This document shows, piece by piece, positions 35,848-37,380 of a stretch of 64,000 nucleotides of DNA. The stretch spans positions 62,001 to 126,000 of the forward strand of contig DASXUQ010000005.1 in NCBI GenBank assembly GCA_036504735.1, read 5' to 3'. Position numbers and translations under genes: made by a program. The notes below the pieces were generated by a model. The model searched no databases and was not told where the DNA came from. It worked only from the letters and a program-made list of their open reading frames with translations. How positions within the stretch are numbered: the stretch's first letter is position 1; each line of letters begins with the position of its first letter. Origin of the DNA: a bacterium. Lineage in GTDB: Bacteria; Electryoneota; RPQS01.

Positions 35848-37380
35848 TCACACGGAGCCGAACACCCGGTCATAGATGGCTGCAAACTGATCTTTGCCGC
35901 AGGCCAGCATAAACAGATTCGGCCACAGCGCGCGCGCCTGCTCCAGCATCTGCTCGGCCAGCAAGCGAATCTCCCATTGCGCATGACTGTCCGCCCGGAG
36001 CCGCGCAAAATGATAGAACTCCCGTGCGTTCATGTGTATCATCACGCGCTTGCGATGAGCGTTGGTCAGGAAATACGGCGCCAGCAGCGGTGAACGCGCG
36101 GAGAGCTTTCGTGCGGCCTCCAACGCCGTCTCCACCGCTTCGCGAAACGGCGCTTCAAGCTGTGCATCCATCAGGCTCGGCGGTGTGATCACCCCGTCTT
36201 CCAGCCTGTACGGCTGTGTAAGCATCGTCATCATCCTGTGCCGCTTGAGTTGCGCGAAACAGGACGCGCTGATCTCCGCTTCAAATGTCATGCTCGCCAG
36301 TTCAAATTCGCGCAGCGCTCCGTCATGCGGTCCCATGCCACGGAACAGTGTCCGCCAAATATCGGGCGAAGGAGAGTCCGCTTTGCCGCAGGTAAACGCC
36401 AGCGCGCGCAGCACCACCGCTTCTCCATCCGGTGTGGATTGAACCAGTCGCACCGTCGGACTCGTGATCACCGCTGCGCCTGTCAAAGGCTGCGCCGCAT
36501 CCCCTATGCTCGCGCACACCCCGCGCCGGTTCTCGCGCGGATAGCTGTCACGCACGACGTACTTTACCACCGATGGCGCAAGGTTCTTCAAGGACTCATA
36601 CAGGCGCCTGCCCAGATCTCGCAATTCCTGCAAAGGATGGTCGGACAAATCCCGTACCACGTGCTCAATCATCCGCGCGTTCACGGTCATGCCCATCTGA
36701 GTACTGCACGCCAGTGGGAGGAGGTAACGGGCATCTTCTTTAGCCCGGTTCTCGGCTTCCTTGACCTCGTCCTTCATCGCCTCGTGGTCAAAGCCCTTAA
36801 GGTATCCCGCTGCCAGGATCTCGGAGAGGGTCTGGTACGATTGAAACAGCCGCGGAATCGTCTCGTGGAACAGCACCTCATCCGCAGTACCCTTAACCTC
36901 CGGCGCCACCACGTAGTCCGTCGTCAGCGTGATATACCTCTGCGACTTTTCCGTAAAGCTCAATAGCCTGTGCGATTGCAACTCCTCCGAGGCCAGCCTC
37001 GAAAGCCCCAGTACATCAAAATTGAAGCAGGCATGTTCCGCCACAGAGGCATGTCCGAGCCCGAAAATAATGTTTTCATTGGATTTTCTGGCCCGCGCCA
37101 CCCCAAACCGCGCCGCTCGTCGCAGCTCCGTTACCTGCTTGGGATCTCTGCTGATCCGCGCATAGGCGGCAGAGAGCGTCTCCGGCGTGAAAGAGCCCGT
37201 GTCGAGGCGGGTGCGGACCGTCTCGGCCAGAGAGGTCACAAACTGCCTGCTGTCTGCCGCCTGATAGCCGCCCGCCTCAAGGTCGGACGCGCCCTGTTCA
37301 AGCCTGACCAGCAGATCCAGCACGTCCGACAGTAAATCGGCATCTAAGTTATACCCGGCAAGGCGGACAGACAATCCCAT
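35848..37380 (-). CDS. double-length ThyX (FAD-dependent thymidylate synthase) homologue
   Basis: ThyX converts dUMP to dTMP using methylene-folate and FAD. This 510-residue protein is about twice the usual length and contains two ThyX modules. Module 1 has GHASVAEHACFNFDVLGLSRL, then SHRLLSFTEKSQRY at residue 136 (the RHRx7S signature with the first Arg replaced by Ser). Module 2 has KRHRMMTMLTQP at residue 379 (RHR kept, Ser replaced by Pro) and NAREFYHFARLRADSHAQWEIR, which matches the C-terminal ThyX motif well. Whether it is an active synthase, with sites shared between modules, is not known. The dUTPase gene at 59390 belongs to the same pathway. Confidence 0.85.
   Translation of the reverse strand: MGLSVRLAGYNLDADLLSDVLDLLVRLEQGASDLEAGGYQAADSRQFVTSLAETVRTRLDTGSFTPETLSAAYARISRDPKQVTELRRAARFGVARARKSNENIIFGLGHASVAEHACFNFDVLGLSRLASEELQSHRLLSFTEKSQRYITLTTDYVVAPEVKGTADEVLFHETIPRLFQSYQTLSEILAAGYLKGFDHEAMKDEVKEAENRAKEDARYLLPLACSTQMGMTVNARMIEHVVRDLSDHPLQELRDLGRRLYESLKNLAPSVVKYVVRDSYPRENRRGVCASIGDAAQPLTGAAVITSPTVRLVQSTPDGEAVVLRALAFTCGKADSPSPDIWRTLFRGMGPHDGALREFELASMTFEAEISASCFAQLKRHRMMTMLTQPYRLEDGVITPPSLMDAQLEAPFREAVETALEAARKLSARSPLLAPYFLTNAHRKRVMIHMNAREFYHFARLRADSHAQWEIRLLAEQMLEQARALWPNLFMLACGKDQFAAIYDRVFGSV

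Follow-up and report, generated by a model that had tools for sequence, protein, structure and literature searches.

Humans lack flavin-dependent thymidylate synthase (ThyX), an enzyme under study as an antimicrobial target. The site of a normal ThyX is built from several identical chains, and this arrangement makes changes on just one side of the site hard to introduce; two unlike modules, covalently joined, would allow the sides to be examined one by one. How a site of this kind draws on two chains is described for PBCV-1 ThyX, in which the contacts of an inhibitor occupying the uracil place are Ser-88 and Gln-89 from monomer B and Gln-75 and Arg-182 from monomer A (excerpts of PMC3498832). 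We use T. maritima (Tm) numbering, which is that of the PDB construct minus 12 and places the RHR at 78-80, and we take PBCV-1 Arg-182 to be Tm Arg174, the two being equated by role rather than by alignment. In the T. maritima enzyme, the S88A, R90A and Y91A changes strongly lower activity and Arg174 activates dUMP (excerpts of PMC8316439 and PMC11940539). In docking to M. tuberculosis (Mtb) ThyX, Arg87, Gln106, Arg107 and Arg172 hold the dUMP phosphate, and the base is bound by Arg199 and again by Arg107 (excerpts of PMC9571937).

Valas and Bourne reported in 2009 a domain-duplicated, uncharacterised ThyX in Chloroflexi and a few other species; Chloroflexi, Dehalococcoides excepted, have no other synthase (excerpts of PMC3224940). 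With two ThyX domains in one protein, as in the protein analysed here, it probably belongs to the same class, judged by that description; unlike the present analysis, the excerpted text (PMC3224940) has nothing on residues or a split site. No account of a divided ThyX site was found in the open-licence literature searched.

Two further enzymes bear on how such a protein might be read. The ThyX of Chlamydia trachomatis (CT632), of about 530 aa, is perhaps of the tandem kind, and if it is, activity of the class would already be known. That enzyme, whose original paper is Griffin et al. 2005, was cloned and is named in an NADPH oxidation assay (excerpts of PMC3498832). The atypical ThyX of Corynebacterium glutamicum (PDB 3ge9, 3fnn), which by its entries has the ThyX fold in common with the tandem protein, is described in the title of 3ge9 as 'not required for thymidylate biosynthesis', and by analogy we counted this dispensability against reading the tandem as a synthase.

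A gene for two fused ThyX modules

The window, that is, the whole stretch of 64,000 nucleotides analysed, contains a 510-aa open reading frame with an ATG start, whose product we call P0001. The gene and its two modules are located as follows.

35848 to 37380, minus strand: tandem ThyX gene encoding P0001 (open reading frame with TIGR02170 and Pfam Thy1 matches)
36517 to 37380, minus strand: module 1, residues 1-288, ThyX fold plus an N-terminal helical stretch, Ser88 side of the site kept (Pfam Thy1 match at 65-270; 3gwc_D match)
35851 to 36474, minus strand: module 2, residues 303-510, ThyX fold, Arg78/Arg174 side kept (1o26_A match)

Two stretches of P0001 matched Pfam PF02511 (Thy1), with 233.8 bits over the whole protein, and two matched NCBIfam thyX TIGR02170, with 151.3 bits against a cut-off of 87.9. 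An AlphaFold model of the single chain, built with 21 sequences, had a mean pLDDT of 79.7 and a pTM of 0.76. Residues 305-501 of the model, in module 2, superposed on T. maritima ThyX 1o26_A (Z 16.4, rmsd 2.3, 190 residues aligned), and residues 1-284, in module 1, on Mtb ThyX 3gwc_D (Z 15.4, rmsd 5.4, 211 aligned), which among the PDB matches listed for the model was the only one to cover module 1 at length. The predicted structure has the ThyX fold in both modules, and P0001 is a ThyX by sequence family (PF02511, TIGR02170) as well as by fold, on these two Z scores. Confidence was low at residues 63-111 and 146-152, around the module 1 site, and for this reason no geometry was drawn from the model.

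The initial annotation had described a tandem ThyX whose modules carry two differently altered signature motifs, and the translation and the two Thy1 stretches bear this out: module 1 has SHRLLSFTEKS at residues 136-146 (SHRx7S) and module 2 has RHRMMTMLTQP at residues 380-390 (RHRx7P). The C-terminal segment that it had assigned to module 2 is likewise there, as NAREFYHFARLRADSHAQWEIR at residues 451-472. A whole RHRx7S within one chain segment is absent from P0001. Since its parts are present and divided between the modules, we call the protein a fused variant rather than a standard ThyX. When the modules are summed, the dUMP-binding or catalytic residues Gln75, Arg78, Ser88, Arg90, Tyr91, Arg147 and Arg174 are all found. 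P0001 thus shares with ThyX as represented by PF02511, TIGR02170 and T. maritima TM0449 (PDB 1o26) the fold of each module and, modules summed, the same dUMP-binding and catalytic residues; it differs from a standard ThyX in having two fused unequal modules, neither with the whole RHRx7S, and probably half the sites.

Division of the site residues between the modules

Residues were counted in 52 tandem proteins, cut into modules and aligned with 28 single-module ThyX (27 plus that of T. maritima; L055, all gaps, was left out). The 52 consist of 38 frames from a Pfam search (37 with two matches, plus G043), picked without regard to likeness to P0001, and 14 found by likeness to it, and the residue division appears in the 38 as well as in the 14. 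Duplicate proteins (L002, L003, L026, L028-L031, L038) were excluded from the counts, as was the tandem of G035 (L054, L024), which is split over two contigs; in L020 the start of module 1 is missing. The residues concerned lie in P0001 at the following positions.

37051 to 37053, minus strand: His110 (Tm His53), module 1; His in 51/52 module 1 and 0/52 module 2 rows
36934 to 36951, minus strand: E144-K-S146-Q-R148-Y149 (Tm Glu86, Ser88, Arg90, Tyr91), module 1; S, R and Y in 52/52, E in 49/52, Q in 3
36727 to 36729, minus strand: Arg218 (Tm Arg147), module 1; 52/52 in module 1, 0/52 in module 2
36967 to 36975, minus strand: S136-H137-R138, module 1, at the place of Tm Arg78-His79-Arg80, first Arg lost; Arg in 5/52, His in 33/52, Arg in 49/52
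36235 to 36243, minus strand: R380-H381-R382 (Tm Arg78-His79-Arg80), module 2; 52/52 each
35995 to 35997, minus strand: Arg462 (Tm Arg174, Mtb Arg199), module 2; 52/52 in module 2, 17/52 in module 1; aligned on Mtb Arg199
36310 to 36312, minus strand: Arg357 (place of Tm Thr55), module 2; Arg in 52/52

Module 1 rows have Ser88, Arg90, Tyr91 and Arg147 without exception and His53 in all but one, with Glu86 in 49/52 (Gln in 3) and Glu144 in 49/52 (Asp in 3). Arg stands at the Arg78 place in 5 of these rows and at the Arg174 place in 17, where the alignment is uncertain, and neither Gln nor Glu occurs at Gln180; His79 is retained in 33/52 and Arg80 in 49/52. The Gln75 place is occupied in module 1 by Glu in 24/52 rows and by Gln in 2/52, and because Glu also occurs there in 3/28 single-module ThyX, the loss of Gln75 is a soft one. 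Module 2 rows have Arg78, His79, Arg80 and Arg174 in 52/52 and Gln75 and Gln180 in 49/52 each, with His53 and Arg147 in 0/52, Arg90 in 1/52 and Ser or Thr in the Ser88 column in 9/52. Tyr91 is kept in 46/52 module 2 rows, in a loop whose shortening makes single alignment columns unsure. Arg80 and Tyr91 accordingly remain in both modules, and Glu58, Arg80, Asn163 and Arg165 are common to the two. At the Tm Thr55 place, Ser or Thr is found in 28/28 single-module ThyX and 52/52 module 1 rows, and Arg (R357 of P0001) in 52/52 module 2 rows.

We considered whether an alignment slip could account for the loss of Ser from module 2. In an ungapped count, S stands at the Ser88 place in 3/52 module 2 sequences (L018, L022, L050), each time followed directly by Y rather than by xRY, and Arg at the Arg90 place in 3/52, as against 1/52 in the alignment. 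The same count gave S, R and Y in 51/52 module 1 sequences, L083 being shifted by one residue, and S in 25/28 single-module ThyX. The exact letters S and P of the altered motifs differ among family members; the constant feature is the catalytic subset that each module keeps. The divergent tandems L076, L079, L081, L078, L080 and L083 have the same split, the exceptions being Asp for His53 in module 1 of L083 and, in module 2 of L078, L080 and L083, the replacement of Gln75 by Asp and of Gln180 by His.

A broader tally was made over the 27 positions conserved in the 28 single-module ThyX. With a position called kept in at least 45/52 rows, 11 were kept by module 1 only, 8 by module 2 only, 6 by both and 2 (Tm Pro151 and Thr156) by neither, against 4.8 by neither expected with independent losses; the hypergeometric P of 0.03 is post hoc and treats positions as independent. 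As far as aligned sequences can carry the case, its weight lies in the identity and invariance of the divided residues more than in this modest P.

Alignment with crystallised ThyX, proposed as a check when the gene was first annotated, demonstrated that the site residues of the T. maritima and Mtb enzymes divide between modules 1 and 2. Mtb Arg87, Ser105, Gln106, Arg107 and Tyr108 align on R128, S146, Q147, R148 and Y149 of module 1, Mtb Arg95 on S136, and Mtb Arg199 on R462 of module 2; P435, also in module 2, aligns with Mtb Arg172, whose module 1 counterpart in the 52-protein alignment is R218. By these correspondences the phosphate-binding set belongs to module 1, and Arg199, which binds the base, to module 2.

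The division of residues follows the two-monomer make-up of the PBCV-1 site, and on this ground one composite site, with the reciprocal site given up, is the most likely arrangement. We consider it very probable that in P0001 two fused ThyX modules divide the labour and form a flavin-dependent thymidylate synthase with one composite site per chain. Of the two options put forward in the initial annotation, that of one hybrid site gains support, as the dUMP-binding and catalytic residues are divided alike in 52 proteins and in a manner matching the PBCV-1 site. The other, that of a structural module, is the poorer fit, since invariant catalytic residues occur in both modules, and we rejected a purely structural module as the main reading for that reason. 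Counted against a composite site are the absence of Pro151 and Thr156 from both modules, the presence of Arg80 and Tyr91 in both, and the retention of His79 in 33/52 module 1 rows.

We also weighed an arrangement in which one module alone is catalytic, as a homo-oligomer formed with the same module of the other chain, while its partner has a structural or regulatory role. Each module retains shared residues such as Glu58, Arg80, Asn163 and Arg165, and module 2 tends towards the longer branches that a relaxed domain might have. This arrangement is nevertheless unlikely: neither module has the full set, module 1 falling short at Arg78 (5/52) and Arg174 (17/52) and module 2 at His53 (0), Arg147 (0) and Arg90 (1/52), and the invariance of R380-H381-R382 and R462 in 52/52 module 2 rows would be needless for a mere scaffold.

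Distribution of tandem ThyX and of other thymidylate synthases

Profile searches covered 99 genomes, namely the window's own (G000), its relatives and a selection from across the domain. In 37/99 a single frame holds two Thy1 matches; G043 has one Thy1 match in a 558-aa frame, yet both modules align, and in G035 the tandem ThyX is split over two contigs. This recurrence, in 37 genomes plus G043 and G035, rules out a chance open reading frame or an assembly artefact. The titles of loci resembling P0001 include Calditrichaeota, KSB1, Acidobacteria, Margulisiibacteriota, Elusimicrobiota, Omnitrophota, Syntrophales, Spirochaetia, Myxococcota, WOR-3 and Stahlbacteria. The tandem ThyX represents a known enzyme in a variant form that is widely shared. 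That the gene is decaying, chimeric or an assembly error is scarcely credible: both signature motifs are altered in P0001, and an internal stop occurs in 2/34 matched places (one TAG in G002, one TAA in G035), but order and residue pattern are the same in 52 proteins from many phyla, with open frames of 417-666 aa, and on this conservation the explanation was rejected.

PF00303 (ThyA) gave no match in the 39 tandem genomes among the 99 and matched in 19 of the 60 non-tandem genomes, 18 of them over the cut-off, several being partial and weak. Only the window's own among the 39 has a further Thy1 match over the cut-off. For the 21 loci found by likeness to P0001, 16 genomes were profile-searched, the remaining 5 loci coming from genomes already among the 99; PF00303 matched in 0/16, two of which are apparently G035 and G036. 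Across the 52 genomes with an intact tandem frame, 52/52 are without a ThyA match and 50/52 without another ThyX over the cut-off, which argues that the tandem ThyX is probably a working thymidylate synthase, as judged from genome content. The C. glutamicum case differs in this respect, its host depending on ThyA, by the title of the structure entry, whereas no ThyA match occurs in any of the tandem genomes. Many of the genomes are drafts, so that an unseen synthase is possible in any single one but hardly in all. Neither Thy1 nor PF00303 matched in G010, G028, G055 and G075 (4/99 genomes), the first of which belongs to the window's own family; draft gaps, salvage or another source of dTMP are possible there.

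A further ThyX piece, with RHRTFSFSQES, lies in G109, one of these 16 tandem-bearing genomes, on the minus strand of contig 101 (locus L102, 1-1400), a 5-kb contig at whose edge it is cut. The first two Thy1 matches of this piece are separated by an unusual stretch.

Whether another synthase exists outside the window had been left open in the initial annotation. In the window's own genome, PF00303 (ThyA) gave 0 matches, and one further ThyX was found, single-module and with an intact RHRx7S, on contig 9.

9486 to 10430 of locus L087 (G000 contig 9, 128000-147000), minus strand: normal ThyX (Thy1 match)

With this second, normal ThyX present, the tandem gene may be dispensable in that genome. 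A canonical synthase elsewhere, together with loss of the FAD- and dUMP-binding residues from both modules, had been named as pointing to a non-synthase role; the first is there, and the residues are not lacking. The neighbours of the contig-9 gene are an integrase, a PtuA-like ATPase, a CARF-like protein (PADLOC CARF6), an ORC-CDC6-like ATPase, and HD-CE, AIPR/MzaE-like and MzaD-like proteins. Given the integrase and the defence-type genes, the contig-9 ThyX looks acquired, and by its context it looks like the cargo of a defence-type island rather than an inherited housekeeping copy. The seven other island genes had no match in the 10 stretches compared, each from a different genome; the contig-9 ThyX was matched in 9, and several stretches are short. 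A literature search on ThyX with CARF or defence returned no mention of ThyX among the matches listed. A 939-aa open frame in L098 (G062 contig 59, 6639-9455), a possible fusion or merely a long frame, contains a ThyX resembling the contig-9 one.

The extra ThyX with its RHRx7S would suit a division of tasks in which the normal enzyme makes dTMP and the tandem carries out another reaction, for example methylation of another nucleotide. A precedent exists in PolB, a ThyX paralogue of nucleoside-antibiotic synthesis (excerpts of PMC5954106) that is a UMP/dUMP methylase by PDB title. We regard this as very unlikely for the tandem, since 50/52 tandem genomes have neither a ThyA match nor another ThyX over the cut-off, the extra ThyX adjoins an integrase and defence-type genes and looks acquired, and the dUMP-contacting residues named in the literature are present across the two modules.

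Proposed working and origin of the tandem enzyme

In the composite-site enzyme that we favour, module 1 would supply the phosphate-binding, Ser88/Arg90/Tyr91 and His53 side of the site and module 2 the Gln75/Arg78/His79/Arg80/Arg174 side. Two chains would pair into a pseudo-tetramer resembling the normal ThyX homotetramer, with the catalytic site between module 1 and module 2 surfaces binding FAD, dUMP and methylene-tetrahydrofolate. The reciprocal site, in which the changed RHR side of module 1 would face the changed Ser side of module 2, is predicted to be dead. Because this mirror-image site has lost residues on both sides, one working site is expected per chain, which would give two working sites per four modules instead of four. 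In most of the bacteria that carry it, the tandem ThyX would be the main source of newly made dTMP.

Such an enzyme would reveal the smallest number of sites with which a ThyX can manage, and would account for thymidylate synthesis in bacteria whose only ThyX motifs are seemingly 'broken'. More tentatively, an old duplication and fusion may have converted a symmetric enzyme with four sites into an obligate two-part one, catalytic only where module 1 faces module 2, whose vacated reciprocal pocket, marked by R357, was then reused, for example for allosteric nucleotide binding or for locking the assembly; we consider this reading conceivable but doubtful. If it is true, the protein would be a natural pseudo-heteromer in one chain, present across many phyla as the only source of newly made thymidylate.

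Phylogenetic analysis of all modules placed the module 2 rows on one side of a branch with an SH-aLRT of about 85. Module 1 rows were not grouped in the free tree, and the tree holding module 1 together was the better one (p-AU 0.93). In a mixture-model tree of 21 of the 52 tandems, 20/21 module 1 rows grouped at 100 and 21/21 module 2 rows at 84. Across phyla the two modules form separate groups, a pattern that fits one old duplication at the origin of the tandem ThyX, several duplications also being possible. Deep branches are long in the module trees and module 2 tends to have the longer ones; the divergent module 1 of L076 strays on a long branch in the mixture-model tree.
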